The notes under the pieces: model-generated | Told to the model about the DNA's origin: nothing | The model's input: the letters and a program-made list of their open reading frames with translations, nothing else | Database searches by the model: none | Made by a program: the position numbers and the translations under genes | Shown: positions 39,265 through 60,043 of the stretch, piece after piece | Layout of the letters: each line of letters starts with the position of its first letter | Numbering within the stretch: position 1 is the first letter of the stretch | Assembly (NCBI GenBank): GCA_017513245.1 | Contig: JAFXGK010000026.1 | Coordinates: forward strand, 1-64,000 | Direction: 5' to 3' | Length of the DNA: 64,000 nt | DNA from: Clostridia bacterium | Lineage (GTDB): Bacteria > Bacillota > Clostridia > Oscillospirales > Acutalibacteraceae

Positions 39265-39353
39265 ATAACCTCATCTTCAGGAATTAGCACCTTGTTAAAC
39301 AGGTTGCCGGGCATCATAGGGCCTGTCCCTCCGCCTCTCTTGATAAGGGATGT
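39265..39353 (-). promoter_or_regulatory. SAM-I (S-box) riboswitch aptamer
   Basis: On the minus strand the conserved order is present: CTTATCAAGAGAGG, GGAGGGA, the GATGCCCGGCAACC box, AAGGTGC, then CCTGAAGATGAGG. P1 pairs CTTATC with GATGAG. It precedes metK and a strong terminator, so SAM should stop transcription. Confidence 0.96.
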
Positions 39354-40056: not shown

Positions 40057-40064
40057 ACATATGC

Positions 40065-40174
40065 GCTCTTCTTTCATCCGGACTATACCGTCGGCTTCGG
40101 AATCTAACCGAATCAACCAAAAAAGGCTCGCGGGCTATACCGCCGGTGGGGAATCTCACCCCGCCCTGAAGACA
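40065..40174 (-). promoter_or_regulatory. FMN riboswitch (RFN element)
   Basis: The RFN landmarks appear in order on the minus strand: TCTTCAGGGCGGGGTGA, AATTCCCCACCGGCGGTA-like (ATTCCCCACCGGCGGTAT), AGCCCGCGAGC, GATTCGGT, CCGACGGTATAGTCCGGAT, and GAAAGAAGA. Controls the downstream ribU. Confidence 0.96.
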
Positions 40175-40179
40175 AAACA

Positions 40180-52477: not shown

Positions 52478-52720
52478 ATGCAAAAGTTAATTGCACTTTC
52501 AGATATAAAAATCGGAGAAGGCGCCGTTGTTAAAAAGCTTGACACCCATGGTGCGATGCGACGGCGACTGCAGGATATGGGACTTGTGATCGGCACAAAA
52601 ACCGAATGTTTGGGCCGCAGTCCCGGCGGAGATCCTGCAGCGTATCTGATTCGCGGTGCCGTTATTGCAATACGACGGGAAGACAGCAAAAATATTTTTG
52701 TGTCTTTAAGGGATGAATAG
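52478..52720 (+). CDS. feoA: Ferrous iron transport protein A
   Basis: 80 residues, one SH3-like FeoA domain: LSDIKIGEGAVVKKLD, MRRRLQDMGLVIGTKTEC, RSPGGDPAAYLIRGAVIAIR. A cytosolic partner of FeoB. The ATG follows AAGGGTGA. It lies four bases before feoB, so a normal feoAB operon existed or exists here. Confidence 0.95.
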   Translation: MQKLIALSDIKIGEGAVVKKLDTHGAMRRRLQDMGLVIGTKTECLGRSPGGDPAAYLIRGAVIAIRREDSKNIFVSLRDE

Positions 52721-52723
52721 CGA

Positions 52724-54187
52724 ATGGGTCTTACAAGAAAATCGGTCGGCAGTGGAATTTTTGATAATACGACCATTAAAAAGAGCAATGAATACGTTAT
52801 CGCCCTTGCCGGCAACCCGAACGTAGGAAAAAGCACGATTTTTAACGCGCTGACCGGTCTTAACCAGCACACCGGAAACTGGCCCGGCAAAACCATATCG
52901 GGCGCTGAGGGCAGATATAGCGATGAATTCGGTGATAAAATTTTGGTGGACATACCCGGCACATATTCCCTGCTTGCGCATTCGGCCGAGGAAGAAATCG
53001 CTCGAAACTTTATATGCTTCGGTAATACCGACGCCACCATTGTTGTTTGCGATGCAACCTGTCTTGAGAGAAATTTAAATCTCGTACTGCAAACACTTGA
53101 AATTTCAAAAAACACCGTTGTTTGCGTTAATCTTTTAGATGAGGCAAGACGAAAACACATAAACGTTGACCTCGGTCGACTATCGCAAAGTCTGGGGGTT
53201 CCCGTAGTCGGCATTTCGGCGCGCAAAAAACACGAGGCCGATAAAATTATGCAGGTACTTAACAATAATATATTAAACCCAAAAGAATCTTCCCCGTTTA
53301 TTGTGCATTACGAAGAAGAAATAGAATCGGCCATTGTAGAACTCGAGCCCCTTGTAAAAGAACTGGTTGGCGAACGCATAAATTCACGGTGGCTTACGCT
53401 CCGTCTTTTAATGCCCGATAGCTCGCTTCTCTCTGAATGCGAAAAATACTTAGGCTTTAATATCCTCGCAGATGAAGAGTTTGCTTCTGCTTTAGAAAAG
53501 GTTTTAAAGGGACTCAAGGACCGCGGTCTTGACCGTGAGGGAATTGAAGATTCGGTTACTGCCTCGATTTATGCCGCCGCAGAAAGAATTGCAGGCAGTG
53601 CCGTTTCATTCACTAAAGAAAACCCAAATTATGCAGATAGAAAAATCGATAAAATCCTTACCGGCAAGTTAATCGGATACCCGATAATGCTGCTTTTTGC
53701 GGGGCTGATATTTTGGATAACCATTGTCGGAGCAAATTATCCAAGCGAGCTTTTAAGTAATCTCTTCTCGGTTTTCGAAAATAAAATCAATCAAATACTG
53801 CTGTTTTTAAACTCTCCCGAGTGGCTACGCAGTATTCTTGTCGACGGCATGTTCAGAGTGCTTTTCTGGGTCGTAGCCGTTATGCTGCCGCCAATGGCCA
53901 TTTTCTTTCCGTTGTTTACATTGCTTGAGGACGTAGGCTATCTGCCGCGAATTGCATATAACCTTGATAATCCGTTTCGCAAATGCAAAGCCTGCGGAAA
54001 GCAGGCGCTCACGATGTGTATGGGGTTTGGCTGTAATGCAGCAGGCATTGTAGGCTGCCGCATTATCGATTCTCCGCGTGAGCGTATGCTTGCCATCCTT
54101 ACTAACAATTTTGTTCCGTGCAATGGTCATTTACCGCAACAAAAGTTTGGCAAAAATCAATTATTTCTTCTGTGGCGGTGCGGCTAA
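52724..54187 (+). CDS. feoB: Ferrous iron transporter FeoB, 5' segment interrupted by an insertion
   Basis: 487 codons, of which about 469 are true FeoB. N-terminal GTPase (ALAGNPNVGKSTIFNALTG, DIPGTYSL, CVNLLDEA), guanine-dissociation-inhibitor helices, then the first gate half (LLFAGLIFWITIVGANYP, VLFWVVAVMLPPMAIFFPLFTLLEDVGYLPR, MCMGFGCNAAGIVGCRI; listed as fragments). The normal sequence breaks off after NNFVPCNG, inside the conserved NNFVPCNG-x-FPTL block. The remaining ~19 residues come from the inserted element and end at a stop. The rest of feoB resumes at 59314. In this form the protein lacks the second gate half and should not transport iron. Confidence 0.93.
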   Translation: MGLTRKSVGSGIFDNTTIKKSNEYVIALAGNPNVGKSTIFNALTGLNQHTGNWPGKTISGAEGRYSDEFGDKILVDIPGTYSLLAHSAEEEIARNFICFGNTDATIVVCDATCLERNLNLVLQTLEISKNTVVCVNLLDEARRKHINVDLGRLSQSLGVPVVGISARKKHEADKIMQVLNNNILNPKESSPFIVHYEEEIESAIVELEPLVKELVGERINSRWLTLRLLMPDSSLLSECEKYLGFNILADEEFASALEKVLKGLKDRGLDREGIEDSVTASIYAAAERIAGSAVSFTKENPNYADRKIDKILTGKLIGYPIMLLFAGLIFWITIVGANYPSELLSNLFSVFENKINQILLFLNSPEWLRSILVDGMFRVLFWVVAVMLPPMAIFFPLFTLLEDVGYLPRIAYNLDNPFRKCKACGKQALTMCMGFGCNAAGIVGCRIIDSPRERMLAILTNNFVPCNGHLPQQKFGKNQLFLLWRCG

Positions 54188-54308
54188 GGCCAAATAATTC
54201 AACCTTAAGTGACAAAAATTCGATAATCAGTTCTTCAATTCGCTTTTGTGAATCGGTACACTCGCCTCTCAAGACAAAAATTATTTCGTTCGGTACGTTT
54301 TTCGGCAT
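54102..54308 (-). CDS. Small ORF crossing the left element junction
   Basis: 68 residues from ATG 54308 with a good GAGGTGAT ribosome site. Helical, acidic and hydrophobic (EIIFVLRGECTDSQKRIE, ELIIEFLSLKVELFG). No family recognised. The last ~9 codons lie in feoB beyond the crossover point. If the element circularises, the frame instead continues through the right end and the C-terminus changes. Position at the edge opposite the recombinase would suit a small recombination accessory factor, but this is only inference. Confidence 0.5.
   Translation of the reverse strand: MPKNVPNEIIFVLRGECTDSQKRIEELIIEFLSLKVELFGLSRTATEEIIDFCQTFVAVNDHCTEQNC
54116..54150. repeat. Left attachment junction (attL) of the feoB element
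   Basis: feoB sequence ...CCGTGCAATGGTCA meets element sequence at the TTT of 54130-54132. The element-side arm CAACAAAA (54137-54144) is the exact inverted copy of TTTTGTTG (59303-59310) at the right end. Aligned with the right junction at an offset of 5,184 bp, GT, TTT and CC positions match. Confidence 0.8.
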
Positions 54309-54339
54309 TTTATCACCTCAAAAAACTATATGAAACAAA

Positions 54340-54388
54340 AAAAGAAGATACCCCTGCGTCATTACGACATCGGGGTATCTTTTTTTAA
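54340..54388. terminator. Terminator of the dapA-ddh-lysA operon
   Basis: Arms AGATACCCC (54346-54354) and GGGGTATCT (54372-54380) with inner pairing, T-runs in both directions. Confidence 0.88.
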
Positions 54389-55698
54389 ACATCGAGAGAG
54401 ATGATGTTTTCTAAGGTTTCGCGACGAACGGCAAGATAAGAGGTACCGTCGCGCAGCATAACGATGGGCGGACGACCTATTCTGTTGTAGTTCGAAGCCA
54501 TTGAATAATGATATGCACCGGTGGTCATACAAGCGAGAATATCGCCGCGTGTAACAGAATCGGGCATATGTACGTTTTCTTGAATTATATCTCCGCTCTC
54601 ACAGCAACGGCCGACAACGGAACAAAGCATATTATGGTCTTCACAAACCTTGTTTGCCAACGTAAGCGTATAGGAAGCGCCATAAAGCGCATATCTGATA
54701 TTGTCGGTCATACCGCCGTCAACCGAGATATAATTAATAAACTCGGGTATGCGCTTAACTGTACCGACAGAATAAAGGGTCATTCCTGCGTCGGCAACAA
54801 TACTGCGGCCCGGTTCAAATCCGATAATCGGCATCGCAATTCCAAGCTCAGCAACCTTGTTCTTTACAGCGTCACCAATTTCTGCGATGACGGCAGGTAA
54901 ATCGAGTACGGGGTCGCTCGCCAAATAGCGAACGCCAAATCCACCGCCGAGATCTAACTGCTCGGCAACGATACCGTATTTATCCCTCATATCGCGGATA
55001 AACTCAAGCATAACGTCGGCAGAACGGAGGAAAACGTCAGCGTCAAATACCTGCGAGCCAACGTGACAGTGGAAACCTGCAAGCTTGATATTTTCAAGCG
55101 ACAGAGCCGTCTTTACCATCTCGTCAGCCTGCCCGGTCTCTATTGCGGAGCCGAACTTCGAATCAACCTTGCCGGTTGCAACCGCCTCGAAGGTATGCGG
55201 GTCAATTCCCGGTGTGATTCTTAAAAGCAGAGGCTGCACCATACCGCGGCGACCGGCCTCGGTATTGATTGCGTACAGTTCTTCTTCGTTATCAACTACA
55301 AAGTAGCCAACGCCCTTTTCAATAGCAAAGGCCACGTCCTCGTCGGTTTTATTATTTGAATGAAAATATGCGTTTTCAAGCGGATATCCTGCACTATAGG
55401 CGGTATAAATTTCACCGCAGGAAACAACGTCGATATTCATACCCTCTTCACGCATTATTTCATAAATGCGCTTAAAGGAGGATGCTTTAGAGGCATACAT
55501 AACCTTGCCCTTGTCGCCAAATGCAGCCTTAACGGCGGTTAAATATTCGCGGCAAACGGCTCTTATGCGGTCCTCATCCATCAAATAAAGCGGCGTTCCG
55601 TATTTTTTAGCAAGGGCAACCGTGTCCTGTCCGGCAAAGGTCAGGTGTTCGCCCGAAACGCCGATGTTATCACAAATAAAAATGTTTTCGTTTTGCAT
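54385..55698 (-). CDS. lysA: Diaminopimelate decarboxylase
   Basis: 437 residues from the ATG at 55698 (AAAGGA upstream; the longer frame overlaps ddh). Alanine-racemase-like PLP barrel: the PLP lysine in KVMYASKASSF, the His/Gly loop FHCHVGSQVFD, LDLGGGFGV, GFEPGRSIVADAG, and the substrate Cys in GRCCESGDI. Converts meso-diaminopimelate to lysine. Third gene of the riboswitch-controlled operon, ten bases after ddh, within the feoB element. Confidence 0.96.
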   Translation of the reverse strand: MQNENIFICDNIGVSGEHLTFAGQDTVALAKKYGTPLYLMDEDRIRAVCREYLTAVKAAFGDKGKVMYASKASSFKRIYEIMREEGMNIDVVSCGEIYTAYSAGYPLENAYFHSNNKTDEDVAFAIEKGVGYFVVDNEEELYAINTEAGRRGMVQPLLLRITPGIDPHTFEAVATGKVDSKFGSAIETGQADEMVKTALSLENIKLAGFHCHVGSQVFDADVFLRSADVMLEFIRDMRDKYGIVAEQLDLGGGFGVRYLASDPVLDLPAVIAEIGDAVKNKVAELGIAMPIIGFEPGRSIVADAGMTLYSVGTVKRIPEFINYISVDGGMTDNIRYALYGASYTLTLANKVCEDHNMLCSVVGRCCESGDIIQENVHMPDSVTRGDILACMTTGAYHYSMASNYNRIGRPPIVMLRDGTSYLAVRRETLENIISLDV

Positions 55699-55708
55699 AA
55701 AAAGTCCT

Positions 55709-56686
55709 TTAAAGCATAATTGCTCGCAGCTCTGCTCCCGAAAGCGGTGAAAGGTCGGCAGGTGCCACGTCGAAGGGCGTAAGACAGCCAATAGTGCCGC
55801 GTTCGTGCATTCTGTACACTGCGCGTGCAAACGCTACTAAAGCGCTTGCGGTAAATTCGGGATTAGAGTCAAGCTTTAAGCTGTATTCAATAGTATTGCT
55901 GTGGCAGGAATTAACTCCGGTTTTTCCGGTTCTGATAACTACGCCGCCGTGCGGAATTTCGCTATGGTCGCGCTTCATTTCTTCCATAGAAATGAAGGTA
56001 ACGGTTGTATCGTAATCGGCAAAGTAATTGGGCATGGTTTTAATTTTTTGCTCAATTTCCTGCAAATTTGCTCCCTCCTCGGCTACAACGTAACACTCAC
56101 GGATGTGCTTTTGTCTTGTTGTAAGTTCGGGAGTATTGCCATCACGCACCGACTGAAGTGTTTCAGCTACGGGAACGGTGTACTGACGGGCATCCACAAC
56201 ACCGTCGATTCGGCGAATGGCATCAGAATGACCTTGACTTACTCCTCTGCCCCAGAAGGTATAGTCTTTTCCATCAGGTAAAATTGCAGAAGCATAGAGT
56301 CTGTTAAGCGAGAACATACCGGGGTCCCATCCGCAGGAAATAAGTGCGGTTGTTTCGTTGGCATACGCCGCAGCATCAACAATTTCAAAATGCTCCGGAA
56401 TCTTGGCGTGGGTGTCAAAACTGTCAACAACGTTAAAGTCACATGCCAAGGCAGGAGTCATCTTGGGCAGGTCGGTAGCACTGCCGCCGCAAATTATAAG
56501 AACGTCAACCTTATCCTTAAAATCCAAAATGTCATCTACCGAATATACGGGAGTGCCAAATAGAGTTTTTAAATCCTTAGGGTCTCTACGTGTGAAAACA
56601 CCCACAAGCTCAACGTCATCGTTTTGCTGAGCCGCACATTCAACACCACGGCCTAAATTGCCATATCCATAGATAGCAATTTTCAT
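55709..56686 (-). CDS. ddh: meso-Diaminopimelate dehydrogenase
   Basis: 325 residues from the ATG at 56686 (AAAGGATGG upstream). NADPH-binding IAIYGYGNLGRGVE, DVLIICGGSATDLP, SCGWDPGMFSLNR and the substrate-domain segment WGRGVSQGHSDAIRRIDGV are diagnostic of Ddh. It makes meso-DAP from tetrahydrodipicolinate in one step, replacing four enzymes of the acylated routes. With dapA and lysA it leaves only dapB (and asd/lysC) to be supplied by the host chromosome. Confidence 0.96.
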   Translation of the reverse strand: MKIAIYGYGNLGRGVECAAQQNDDVELVGVFTRRDPKDLKTLFGTPVYSVDDILDFKDKVDVLIICGGSATDLPKMTPALACDFNVVDSFDTHAKIPEHFEIVDAAAYANETTALISCGWDPGMFSLNRLYASAILPDGKDYTFWGRGVSQGHSDAIRRIDGVVDARQYTVPVAETLQSVRDGNTPELTTRQKHIRECYVVAEEGANLQEIEQKIKTMPNYFADYDTTVTFISMEEMKRDHSEIPHGGVVIRTGKTGVNSCHSNTIEYSLKLDSNPEFTASALVAFARAVYRMHERGTIGCLTPFDVAPADLSPLSGAELRAIML

Positions 56687-56717
56687 AATAACCATCCTTT
56701 AACATAAATAAAATTTC

Positions 56718-57602
56718 TTAGATAAGATTGTGCTCACGCATAAGCTTTAAAAGCTTTTCTTCGTTCTGCGGCTCCATACAGGTGAGCGGAAGTCTGAGAT
56801 AGTTATCGCAAAAGCCCATAGCGGCAACTGCAGCCTTTACGGGGATCGGATTAACCTCACAGAAAAGCGTGTCGATTAACTCGAGGTATTTCAGCTGCAT
56901 TGCTGTTGCCTCGGCAACATTACCCTCTAAATAGGCTTTACACATTCTGGAAGTTTCAGCAGGCATAATATTGGAAAGAACCGAAATTACACCCTTGCCG
57001 CCGAGCGACAAAGTGGGAACAATCTGATCGTCATTGCCCGAATAGATGTCAAGCTTATCGCCGCAAAGAGCAGCAAGCTTTGCAACCTGAGATATATTTC
57101 CGCAAGCCTCTTTAATAGCCACAATACGGGGATGCTCGGCTAAGATTGCAGCGGTCTCGGGCAGGATATTACAGCCGGTGCGGCTGGGAACGTTATAGAG
57201 AATGCAGGGTTTGGTCGATGCATCGGCAATTGCGCGGAAGGATTCAATCATACCCTTCTGGGTTGCCTTGTTGTAGTACGGAGTAATAAGCAACATAGCA
57301 TCCGCTCCGACAGAGCAGGCGTATTTGGTAAGTTCGATTGCATAAGATGTATCGTTAGAGCCGGTGCCTGCAATTACGGGAACGCGTCCTGCAACCTGCT
57401 CAACACAGAACTTTATGGCAGCCTTGTGCTCGGCATCGGTAAGGGTTGAACCCTCGCCGGTAGTGCCTGCAACGACAATAGCATTTATTCCCTCTTCGAT
57501 CTGCCAGTCGATGTGTTTGGCGAACTTCACAAAATCAATGCCGTCTTTATTAAGCGGTGTGATAATAGCGGTTGCTGCACCTGTAAATACTGTGTTTTTC
57601 AT
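56718..57602 (-). CDS. dapA: 4-Hydroxy-tetrahydrodipicolinate synthase
   Basis: 294 residues from ATG 57602 (AGGAG upstream). TIM barrel with VAGTTGEGSTLTDAEH, the catalytic Tyr in ILYNVPSRTGCNI, the Schiff-base lysine in RIVAIKEACGN, and GGKGVISVLSNIMP. Condenses pyruvate with aspartate semialdehyde at the entry to lysine/DAP synthesis. First gene of the operon, behind a lysine riboswitch. Confidence 0.97.
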   Translation of the reverse strand: MKNTVFTGAATAIITPLNKDGIDFVKFAKHIDWQIEEGINAIVVAGTTGEGSTLTDAEHKAAIKFCVEQVAGRVPVIAGTGSNDTSYAIELTKYACSVGADAMLLITPYYNKATQKGMIESFRAIADASTKPCILYNVPSRTGCNILPETAAILAEHPRIVAIKEACGNISQVAKLAALCGDKLDIYSGNDDQIVPTLSLGGKGVISVLSNIMPAETSRMCKAYLEGNVAEATAMQLKYLELIDTLFCEVNPIPVKAAVAAMGFCDNYLRLPLTCMEPQNEEKLLKLMREHNLI

Positions 57603-57644
57603 AAAAATTCTCCTTTGATGGCAAAATCTTACCACTGTTAATAA

Positions 57645-57682
57645 ATAAAAAATGACAGCTGCTGAAATGCAACTATCATCCA
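57645..57682 (-). terminator. Lysine riboswitch terminator
   Basis: Minus strand ATGATAG (57673-57679) pairs with CTGTCAT (57652-57658), inner TGC/GCA pairs, followed by TTTTTT. Confidence 0.8.
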
Positions 57683-57738
57683 AAATTCATGCAAAAAGTA
57701 CGCATTTTCAGCACGCTTTTGCCCTATAAATTCTGTCA

Positions 57739-57895
57739 GATAGCACTCCGCATCTCTGCGACAGCAACCAAAATCTTATTTTCGGTTGCCAGATCGAAGC
57801 TTTGCCCTGCTCCGTCTTCGGCAACGCAACCCTTTCACTGCTGCGCCCTGGCAGGCACGCTGCAACAGCTACTATTGATGCGATGCACCTCTATC
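57739..57895 (-). promoter_or_regulatory. Lysine riboswitch (L-box) aptamer
   Basis: On the minus strand: GATAGAGGTGCATCGC at the 5' side, AGTGAAAGGG, the invariant GCCGAAG, and GGAGTGCTATC at the 3' side, where P1 pairs GATAG with CTATC. The five-helix spacing of about 157 nt is normal. The 371-bp gap between dapA and the recombinase holds this aptamer, its terminator and the dapA promoter. Lysine should repress the operon. Confidence 0.93.
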
Positions 57896-57903
57896 GTTAT
57901 GTG

Positions 57904-57932
57904 ATTATAACACAGGTGTACACTTATGTCAA
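57904..57932 (-). promoter_or_regulatory. Promoter of the dapA-ddh-lysA operon
   Basis: Perfect minus-strand TTGACA (57927-57932), 17-bp spacer, TATAAT (57904-57909), immediately before the lysine aptamer and divergent from the recombinase. Confidence 0.93.
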
Positions 57933-57973
57933 GCCAATAAACATAACAGTTTTTAACTTTCGAGGTATTATTT

Positions 57974-59302
57974 ATGATGTTTTATATTTACAGTAGAAAA
58001 TCGGTATTAACAGGCAAGGGTGAAAGTATAGAAAATCAGGTTGAAATGTGCAAAAACTACGTGAAAAACAAATTTTCCGACGACGATATACATTTTTCTA
58101 TCTATGAGGATGAAGGTTTTTCTGCAAAGGATACCAACCGCCCGAAATTTAAACAAATGTTGGCAGATATTAAAAACAGCAAACCCGATTTTATTGTTTG
58201 TTACAGACTCGACCGCATCAGCAGATGCGTAAGCGATTTTTCGCTTTTAATTGAAAAACTTAACCAATACGGCATTTCGTTTTTATGTATTAAGGAGGAG
58301 TTTGACACCTCAAAGCCCATAGGAAAAGCCATGATGTATATCGCATCGGTTTTTGCGCAGCTCGAACGTGAAACAATTGCAGAACGCGTTAAGGACAATA
58401 TGCTGGAACTTGCCAAAAGCGGCCGCTGGATGGGCGGCACGACACCGTTTGGATTTCTTTCCAAGCAACTTCGCGAAGACCAAAACGACGGAAAAAAGCG
58501 CACGCTTAGTTTGCTATGTGTAAACGATGAGGAAATGAAAACCGTAAAACTTATTTTTGATAGTTTTTTATCATCCAAAAGCATTGATGCTGTTCGAAAA
58601 ATTCTTTTTTCAAAACAAATTAAAACCCGTAGCGGCAAGGATTTTACAAACGCCGCAATCAAACAAATTTTAACCAACGCCGTATACTGTTCGGCTGATG
58701 CCGTCGCACATGACTATTTTACATCGTTGGGAGCCTTGGTATGTTTCTGTCCCGATAATCCAAACAATGGAATTCTCACATATAATAAACGTGACTACCG
58801 AAAACGTTCAGCACCGTACAGAGACGTATCCGAATGGATAATCACCTGTGGTCAGCACAAAGGAATTATAAGCGGAAAAACCTTCGTTACCATACAAAGA
58901 CTACTAAAAAATAAAACATTTCAGAGATCGCAAAACGAGCACCTAAAAACGCCGCTACTATCGGGGAAAATATACTGTAAACGTTGCGGAAGCAAAATGT
59001 TTGCCAAGCGTCGAGGTCAAGATAAATTTGACTACATATGCAGCCGAAAACTGCAAAACGGTCGTGATGCATGCGGTATACAAAACCTATCGGGAACGCA
59101 AACCGATAAAATGGTATTAACTCAAATCATCAGCACAATACAGAGAGAAGAAAAACTATTACAGGAACTCGGTCAGGTTAAATTCGGTAAAGAATCTTCG
59201 AAACCTATTGTCGATGGCAGCGCATTAAAGTTGGAACTTATTAACCATATTGTAGAAAAAATCGAATGGGACGGCCGCAGCATGAAAATTTTTTTGCCAT
59301 AA
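57974..59302 (+). CDS. Large serine recombinase (site-specific integrase/excisionase)
   Basis: 442 residues. Resolvase domain: catalytic Ser10 in YIYSRKS, DEGFSAKDTNRPKF, CYRLDRISRCVSDF, ASVFAQLERETIAERVKDN. Then the recombinase domain (GRWMGGTTPFGF, VRKILFSKQIKTRSGKDFTN, ILTNAVYCSADAV) and a zinc ribbon (IYCKRCGSKMFAKRRG ... YICSRKLQNG ... CGI) with a short C-terminal helix. At 442 residues it is small for the class but all core parts are present and no frameshift is seen. The start follows CGAGGT. Its stop codon lies 12 bp before the crossover point, the normal place for such a gene next to its attachment site. Confidence 0.95.
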   Translation: MMFYIYSRKSVLTGKGESIENQVEMCKNYVKNKFSDDDIHFSIYEDEGFSAKDTNRPKFKQMLADIKNSKPDFIVCYRLDRISRCVSDFSLLIEKLNQYGISFLCIKEEFDTSKPIGKAMMYIASVFAQLERETIAERVKDNMLELAKSGRWMGGTTPFGFLSKQLREDQNDGKKRTLSLLCVNDEEMKTVKLIFDSFLSSKSIDAVRKILFSKQIKTRSGKDFTNAAIKQILTNAVYCSADAVAHDYFTSLGALVCFCPDNPNNGILTYNKRDYRKRSAPYRDVSEWIITCGQHKGIISGKTFVTIQRLLKNKTFQRSQNEHLKTPLLSGKIYCKRCGSKMFAKRRGQDKFDYICSRKLQNGRDACGIQNLSGTQTDKMVLTQIISTIQREEKLLQELGQVKFGKESSKPIVDGSALKLELINHIVEKIEWDGRSMKIFLP

Positions 59303-59330
59303 TTTTGTTGTGCTTTTCCAACACTTATTG
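59296..59330. repeat. Right attachment junction (attR) of the feoB element
   Basis: Element arm TTTTGTTG (59303-59310), then TGC and the TTT crossover (59314-59316), then feoB TCCAACACTTATT. The recombinase stop TAA is at 59300-59302. Confidence 0.8.
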
Positions 59331-60043
59331 CAATAATCACTATGTTCTTTTTGGGAACTGCAAGCGGCGTTTGTTCTTCGCTCGTTTCTGCAGTATTGCT
59401 TACCGTAACGATACTGTTTTCGATTTTGATGACACTGGCGGTTACCAAGGTGCTTTCTGCAACCGTATTAAAGGGCACTCCCTCGTTTTTTACGCTTGAG
59501 CTTCCCTCCTATCGCCCACCGCAGGTCGGAAAGGTAATTATAAGGTCGATTTTTGACAGGACACTTTTTGTGCTCGGTCGCGCAATCGTGGTCGCCGCTC
59601 CGGCCGGAATACTGTTATGGGTTATGGCAAACGTAACGCTCGGCGACAGTTCCCTGCTTTCGATTTGTGCCAATTTTTTAGACCCCTTTGCTAAAGTAAT
59701 CGGGCTGGACGGCACCATTATGATAGCCTTTATTCTCGGCTTTCCCGCAAACGAAATAGTTATGCCGATAATTATAATGGCTTATCAGGCGCAGGGCTCT
59801 ATTACGCCGCTTACAAACACCGAAGCGATTAAAGATATCTTTTTGCAAAACGGATGGACATCCGTAACCGCTATTTGCGTGATGGTCTTTCTTCTTATGC
59901 ACTGGCCCTGCTCCACAACGCTGATGACCGTAAAAAAAGAAACTGGCAGTATAAAATGGACCATATTCGCGGCTTTACTTCCAACGGCATGCGGAATTTC
60001 GCTTTGCTTTATTATTAATGCTATTGCCAAACTTTTCATTTGA
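59314..60043 (+). pseudogene. feoB: feoB 3' segment (resumes after the insertion)
   Basis: About 243 codons from TTTTCC at 59314, in the same frame as the 5' part: FPTLIAIITMFFLGTASG, LELPSYRPPQVGKVIIRSI, ILLWVMANVTLGDSSLL, AFILGFPANEIVMPIIIMAY, LMHWPCSTTLMTVKKETGS. This is the second FeoB gate half and C-terminus without internal stops. No ribosome site precedes the first ATG (59342), so in the inserted state it is probably not translated. The intactness argues for a recent or reversible insertion rather than decay. Confidence 0.92.

Follow-up and report, generated by a model that had tools for sequence, protein, structure and literature searches.

Known intervening elements mostly interrupt genes for sporulation or nitrogen fixation. 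Here we describe a 5,184-bp island that interrupts an iron-import gene, feoB, in a 64,000-nucleotide stretch of DNA from a Clostridia bacterium of the family Acutalibacteraceae (assembly GCA_017513245.1, contig JAFXGK010000026.1, positions 1 to 64,000; hereafter the window). The nearest analogue is gin, found in gerE of Bacillus cereus ATCC10987, for which excision was shown by experiment; excerpts of that report describe 31 genes, three recombinases, a link to sporulation timing, and a 42-amino-acid (aa) protein, GirX, that is required for excision (PMC5595907). For the skin element of Clostridioides difficile, excerpts of the published account name the serine recombinase CD1231 and a 72-aa protein, CD1234, that gives directionality (PMC5025042). 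Large serine recombinases that break one target gene family have also been described; a magnesium chelatase/protease gene is commonly hit, and the terms ‘feoB’, ‘ferrous’ and ‘iron transport’ occur nowhere in the main text of that paper (PMC10083194). In the portions available of two further papers, feoB is treated as cargo (PMC6070778, PMC13141850). A search of the openly accessible literature, with subscription papers and supplements outside its scope, gave no recognisable report of a serine-recombinase insertion in feoB.

The island carries a recombinase gene, a small open reading frame (ORF) and a dap operon, and sits at feoB codon 470. We give a probability of roughly two in three to the reading in which its own recombinase would excise it precisely and so rejoin feoB; such excision would presumably be occasional or conditional. 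The 5′ part of the gene (codons 1–469; 52724..54130, forward strand, with an open frame that continues to 54187) and the 3′ part (codons 470–711; 59315..60043, forward strand, supported by its ORF and by Pfam) lie in the same frame and are stop-free by an ORF and translation check. Removal of 5,184 bp leaves 711 codons, with 242 codons plus the stop coming from the 3′ part; coordinates and translation agree with an earlier note on this DNA, which had described feoB as split in frame and restorable to that length. Pfam detects FeoB_N, FeoB_Cyto and Gate in the 5′ part and FeoB_C and Gate in the 3′ part, and the first Gate domain ends at the break. The ORF directly upstream of the split gene is taken to be feoA (52478..52720, forward strand), whose homologues adjoin feoB in relatives. 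Uninterrupted feoB does occur in relatives, a comparison that the earlier note had proposed: an order-wide search covered 395 genomes, 176 of them with this feoB type, and 118 of the 150 rows listed have a feoB frame of at least 584 aa.

The island lies between two TT cores (54131..59314, no strand assigned), as placed by comparing the junctions of three elements, those of the window, of a sister species (G002) and of a further genome (G083), with intact relatives. All three align on one TT core. At the left junction the feoB side reads AATGGTCAT and the island then begins with TTACCGCAACAAAAGTTTGGCAAAAA; at the right junction the island side reads TTTTTGCCATAATTTTGTTGTGCT and feoB resumes with TTTCCAACA. 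The exchange point fits best at TT, with which the Phe codon of NGR/FPTL begins (the slash marks the break). Site attL (54131..54156) would comprise the TT core at 54131–54132 and an attP arm at 54137–54156, and attR (59291..59316) an arm at 59291–59310 and the core at 59315–59316. The arms form a 90% inverted repeat centred on TT. They match the window twice, at both island ends, where 0.03 matches are expected and none of 100 shuffles gave two, and they are similar to those of G002 (17/20 and 19/20 bases). An alternative core, GT (in GGT), was weighed and dropped because attL of G002 and G083 retains the canonical Arg codon and TT is the centre of the arms. Paired sites that share a core dinucleotide and differ in their flanks are those of a serine integrase, with the core here placed by comparison. 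The shared core and inverted arms bear out the precise, frame-keeping boundaries that had been proposed, as does the recombinase gene abutting the right junction, its end lying 12 bp before the TT core. Scar-free excision that rejoins feoB is plausible on this anatomy.

The recombinase (57974..59302, forward strand, 442 aa) has the Resolvase, Recombinase and zinc-ribbon domains and the Ser and Arg of a large serine integrase. Ser10 and Arg8 are kept in 79 of 80 rows (one gap), Cys335 and Cys338 in 80/80, and Cys356 and Cys367 in 78/80 (two gaps); the catalytic residues are taken to be among these. The open frame and kept key residues agree with the expectation of a recombinase without inactivating mutations. 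Its best match in the PDB is 3guv (69.8 bits), over the N-terminal part. Species genomes were scanned with three such recombinases, giving 353 relatives, and the best 79 loci were analysed; none has a stop within its recombinase match, and feoB pieces are present in 62, within the DNA examined. A tree was built from 92 recombinases (the window, the 79 loci and 12 more), and one clade of it accounts for all that have a feoB piece: 63 of its 69 rows, the window included, as against 0 of 23 outside the clade, five of which were examined with only about 1.5 kb of flank. The six clade rows without a feoB piece in the DNA examined are L121, L128, L159, L173, L185 and L190, and in L139, L149 and L184 the piece lies some kb from the recombinase. 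All 56 of the 3′ pieces start within four residues of codon 470 and are stop-free, as are 16 of 17 5′ pieces (the piece in L175 being matched as two stretches); the one stop, in the L141 5′ piece, falls in foreign sequence that precedes the feoB motif. By record name, the hosts include Lacrimispora, Eisenbergiella, Hungatella, Flavonifractor, Anaerotruncus, Butyricicoccus and Massiliimalia. Of 80 relatives on viral contigs, only one lies by feoB. A prophage or integrative and conjugative element does not fit either, as most of the 5.2 kb is taken up by the five genes scanned, of which the recombinase alone is phage-like (PHROG ‘integrase’). The window element is best read as a feoB-specific serine-integrase island and belongs to a large family. 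A recombinase–FeoB fusion, suggested by ORFs in L171 and L174, failed a frame check, which showed a stop eight codons upstream of the core. In L146, L150, L154 and L175 a recombinase of the same clade adjoins and faces the 5′ feoB piece, so that the element orientation is unlike that of the window.

The source assembly (G000; 1.7 Mb, 91.5% complete) is fragmented into 51 contigs, which could speak for an assembly or binning artefact. We regard that explanation as negligible: the same structure is present in another genome, the protein cluster of the 5′ part lies on nine contigs, and named isolates carry related islands. The other genome is that of the sister species G002, which has the same arrangement, with feoB parts 67% and 70% identical and a recombinase 52% identical to those of the window. 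The cargo is closer, at 88% (dapA), 87% (ddh) and 83% (lysA). At four-fold degenerate sites the three cargo genes, not assigned individually, have identities of 0.51, 0.44 and 0.43, and the flanking host genes have 0.48 (uvrC), 0.30 (ybaK), 0.39 (feoA), 0.38 (mnmA), 0.49 (FAD-oxidoreductase) and 0.56 (last gene); the names of these neighbours are ones we assume. The two recombinases are sisters (Shimodaira–Hasegawa-like approximate likelihood ratio test, SH-aLRT, 94). Because the cargo has diverged like the flanking host genes and the recombinases are sisters, the island was most likely present before the species split, a timing that rests on one species pair.

We see that both halves of the gene have stayed under purifying selection, as had been suggested from their lack of mutations. 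The ratio of nonsynonymous to synonymous substitution rates (dN/dS) between G000 and G002 is about 0.1, namely 0.115 for the feoB 5′ part and 0.070 for the 3′ part, compared with 0.099 for feoA, 0.073 for mnmA and 0.039–0.055 for uvrC, lysA, ddh, dapA, the FAD-oxidoreductase and the last gene; dS in this pair is saturated, including for ybaK and the recombinase. Uncorrected proportions (pN/pS) are 0.38 for residues 1–377 and 0.27 for residues 472–711, and are not above the medians of 0.45 and 0.34 for intact feoB in 36 pairs of another genus. In genus g181, where three of ten loci were inspected and have an insertion and seven were assigned by frame length, 45 short-frame feoB pairs give a median of 0.246 and one intact pair gives 0.256; in genus g55 the single interrupted pair gives 0.033. 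The pairs in these comparisons are not independent. Since the ratios of the halves are low despite an old insertion, these data argue that some feoB function persisted in spite of the split. They bear on an explanation that we consider unlikely, namely that these are purely selfish islands with fast turnover, each inserted too recently for the feoB halves to have decayed. Hosts with different names share near-identical recombinases (L125, L126 and L129); this, varied cargo, and the long feoB frames in 118 of the 150 rows would all suit such turnover, whereas the insertion shared by the window and G002 is as old as the species pair and dN/dS is still about 0.1.

Alternatively, the island may be domesticated and immobile, fixed in place by its dap operon, while the feoB halves serve as two separate polypeptides or are maintained for some other reason. 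The presence of the same island with vertically inherited cargo in two species, a recombinase that diverges fast (52% identity, pN 0.32), and a break where the first Gate domain ends, a position at which FeoB could conceivably consist of two parts, are in keeping with such domestication. A separate 3′ polypeptide would need its own start, and 11 of 57 attR junctions offer a TTG with a ribosome-binding site. The remaining 46, the window junction among them, have no ribosome-binding-site start for the 3′ piece, and for that reason rejoining is favoured over a two-part protein. As the recombinase is also open with its catalytic residues kept, and the att arms of the two species agree at 17 and 19 of 20 bases, we judge domestication to be clearly improbable.

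Excision by a serine integrase may call for a partner protein, and the left end of the island holds a candidate. A 68-aa ORF (54102..54308, reverse strand) has a strong ribosome-binding site, GAGGTGAT, and is directed toward attL, which it crosses; from its size and its place at the island end we propose it as a putative recombination directionality factor. A small ORF of 44–72 aa with a ribosome-binding site, facing the junction, is present in 11 of 14 left ends scanned (the window, L029, L140, L122, L142, L145, L171, L174, L177, L183 and L201), and the proteins start with M-x-K-N/K or similar. The same scan found none in L134, L182 and L151, and a later profile search located one near the left end of L134 and one about 2.6 kb further in for L182. 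The family comprises 61 database clusters, mostly of 64–69 aa and unnamed or ‘hypothetical’, and its profile matches 30 of 135 loci (including the duplicate pairs L030/L140 and L134/L202), with one match, L186, outside the feoB clade. With the family profile, the G002 protein scores above all 200 of its shuffles. The predicted structure of the small protein has two helices (mean predicted local distance difference test score, pLDDT, 81.4), for which the PDB holds no match better than E 3, and searches of Pfam and PHROGs gave nothing convincing (best E 0.012 and 0.049).

The cargo consists of genes for lysine and cell-wall precursor synthesis on the reverse strand, which the earlier note did not mention, nor the lysine riboswitch or the small left-end ORF. 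These are lysA, for diaminopimelate decarboxylase (54385..55698, with an internal ATG start inferred in an ORF that extends to 55830; TIGR01048, 411.1 bits, cut-off 297.9); ddh, for diaminopimelate dehydrogenase (55709..56695; TIGR01921, 421.2 bits, cut-off 180.6); and dapA, for 4-hydroxy-tetrahydrodipicolinate synthase (56718..57602, again with a presumed internal ATG start, ORF to 57683; TIGR00674, 341 bits, cut-off 206.15). Upstream of dapA lie a lysine riboswitch (57733..57901, reverse strand; RF00168, 88.5 bits, gathering threshold 30) and a putative promoter, TTGACA-17-TATAAT (57904..57932, reverse strand), which agrees with the consensus at 12/12 positions as a pattern match, in a region with 18 promoter-like sites as against 14.8 in shuffles. 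The window also has an FMN riboswitch (40062–40177, reverse strand) and a SAM riboswitch (39268–39349, reverse strand). Both lysA and ddh are single-copy in G000. The claim is limited to these two because dapB is missing from G000, likely through an assembly gap; dapA was considered as a sole copy too, being found once in the assembly, and was rejected since both G001 and G002 carry another dapA near dapB. A search for DapF detected it in 9 of 14 control genomes and in none of the three congeners (G000, G001 and G002). For this reason Ddh is probably the only source of meso-diaminopimelate (meso-DAP), in a search that did not extend to DapL or to the succinylase and acetylase routes, and without the circle a cell would probably depend on external DAP or lysine. 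In the congener G001 (76% complete) a riboswitch–dapA–ddh–lysA operon occurs on a separate contig, with no match to the feoB 3′ part or to the recombinase anywhere in the assembly; on this basis the dap operon looks like an operon of the lineage that moved onto the island.

From these observations we can outline how such an island might behave. The recombinase would integrate it by attP × attB exchange at the conserved NGR/FPTL codons, and the protein of 60–70 aa would act as directionality factor for excision. Excision would have to be frequent enough in some cells or conditions to have held FeoB function under selection since before the species split. Nearly all cells would nevertheless keep the island, and excision would be rare, short-lived or reversed by re-integration: with ddh and lysA each single-copy and DapF not found, loss of the circle would mean loss of meso-DAP and lysine synthesis.

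Several observations weigh against excision that rejoins feoB, in addition to the saturated dS, the single species pair and the 11 TTG starts given above. The rejoined gene, which the earlier note had suggested seeking, was looked for among protein clusters: 7,997 were scored, and none of the 120 best-listed proteins is a rejoined feoB. The cluster of the species for the 5′ part is a 487-aa form with five members on nine contigs, that for the 3′ part has 233 aa on six contigs, and the nearest intact protein to the 5′ part is 68% identical among the matches listed. A 347-aa protein (P0122) was rejected as a rejoined copy, being a fragment with an internal duplication and 54% identity. Among the same 120 proteins there are no same-species pairs of intact and split forms, and the best identity between a truncated and an intact form is 82%. 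The attP pattern or circle junction has no match in viral contigs. As in skin- and gin-type elements, a coding gene is split in frame and restorable, with a residue 469 that differs from an invariant Arg: codon 469 of the window is CAT (His), and Arg stands there in all 115 of the 120 proteins that are intact FeoBs. A database representative, P0001, differs from the window 5′ product solely in having Arg at this residue. The earlier statement that no conserved residue is lost is therefore slightly off, codon 469 being the exception. For the small ORF of the window, 3 of 200 of its own shuffles reach its profile score. The dN/dS of the feoB halves exceeds that of most genes compared, and selection on them may be slightly relaxed. 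Finally, G000 has a second FeoB, in an open frame of 683 aa (26% identical over the 5′ part), which tells against excision as a switch. A missing rejoined copy would also be expected if excision were confined to few cells.

That second FeoB bears on the idea of a programmed ON/OFF switch, responding to iron limitation or cell fate in the manner of skin or gin, with the island kept for the timing of feoB. The purifying selection on both halves, the candidate directionality factor, and the fact that feoB has been hit independently by several families, once in four stop-free pieces, are compatible with it. The earlier description of iron uptake as OFF with the element in place was too strong given the 683-aa FeoB; the note had also held that a second intact feoB beside a decaying copy would speak against its proposal, and the second FeoB is there while the split copy is not decaying. 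A sporulation-type programme, which had been suggested by analogy, finds no support, in that the assembly, 91.5% complete, has no match to Spo0A_C (B. subtilis was the one positive among 14 controls). Taken with the seemingly essential cargo, which makes loss costly, the lack of an identified regulatory signal for the recombinase and of an excised form among the proteins listed, this leads us to consider a programmed switch rather unlikely.

The window is not the only case of a broken feoB, and the earlier view of it as a single new case was too narrow. Of the 150 rows in the order-wide search, 29 have short frames of the interrupted type (246–327 aa), seven of which fit codon 470 and 22 fit upstream breaks; three more short rows were excluded (G164 and G419, at contig ends, and G138, with a frame break). 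A separate search gave short rows in 10 of 74 for this feoB type versus 0 of 76 for the other FeoB type, with G031 (contig start) and G138 excluded from the former count and G044 and G065 (contig starts) from the latter. We inspected six codon-470 loci, of which five have a serine recombinase and one stops at a contig end, and 15 loci of the upstream type (L109–L115, L207–L212, L215 and L216), of which 13 have a serine recombinase near the break; in L112 and L113 none was found there with the queries used. One matched feoB piece, in L216, has a stop. The gene is in three pieces in G123 and in four in G429 (L212/L233, contig C33, 167500–203000), with breaks at NQHTG/NWPGK, V/MLPPMAIFF and ALTMC/MGFG, no stops, and three intervening segments that each hold at least one serine recombinase. 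In all, three further feoB break sites are hit by other recombinase families, making feoB a recurrent target. More tentatively, feoB in Clostridia might be kept in pieces, with at least four conserved stretches serving different serine-recombinase families as integration sites, selection acting on the pieces during the split, and recombinase-controlled excision rebuilding the transporter as needed, and the island of the window genus would then tie iron import to the temporary release of a lysine and cell-wall operon.

Cargo varies among the islands. A scan of 20 proteins from codon-470 loci, with ten further ones from G123 and from the flanks of the G001 operon, identified lactate dehydrogenase and malic enzyme (L142 and L145), a urea transporter (L140), a CoA transferase and a sulfatase (L182), a type I methylase (L122) and an M56 peptidase (L174); a 143-aa cargo protein of L134 had no match in domain scans. 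Malic enzyme in L147 was recognised by sequence likeness only. In L183 (5948–11256), a complete 824-aa FeoB lies between the broken feoB and the recombinase, along with a short FeoA-like ORF seen by eye, as if compensating for the feoB that the island breaks. At six loci the left end was not reached and island placement is assumed; these have SMODS and reverse transcriptase (L129), amylase (L133), SIR2 and a HerA-like protein (L135), FAD oxidoreductase (L143), PemK (L148) and zinc dehydrogenase (L170). The SMODS (CBASS-type), SIR2 and HerA-like proteins beside feoB-site recombinases in L129 and L135 are possible defence cargo. Overall, a nutrient-uptake gene has been hit repeatedly by intervening elements, and the family is a source of integrases specific to feoB, along with their predicted small partners. 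These raise the questions of whether excision serves as an iron-import switch, and what becomes of a cell whose lysine and cell-wall operon is on a circle.

Set beside known systems, the island is distinct from two recombinase-borne classes by family profiles, with scores of 120.9 bits against a cut-off of 900 for CcrB of the staphylococcal cassette chromosome (SCC; NCBIfam) and 125.5 against 375 for XisF of the fdxN element. SCC elements are serine-recombinase cargo islands at one chromosomal site; their rlmH target and gene-sparing integration do not apply to the feoB island. A solved relative of the recombinase is the SPbeta integrase YokA (PDB 9dxh and 9dxd), which matches window residues 38–240 only, at 47.9 bits; some entries include a partner protein, YotN, and YokA is of phage origin. 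As far as the excerpts of its description go, the skin element likewise combines a serine recombinase with a small protein and rebuilds an interrupted gene, whereas its target is sigK under mother-cell control and the window genome has no Spo0A match. A sporulation gene in a spore former, as expected of the skin/gin type, is not what is interrupted here, the target being feoB. With gin, again as excerpted, the feoB island shares the form of a non-phage serine-recombinase element in a coding gene, which excision rebuilds in gin; a small factor is needed for excision in gin and has a candidate here, and the restriction–modification genes among the content of gin count as a further likeness; the feoB island differs in its 5.2-kb size, single recombinase, metabolic operon and iron gene, and in that its excision is predicted. 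In short, assignment to the sporulation-type class is not supported, and what the sequence suggests is the anatomy of a gene-intervening element.

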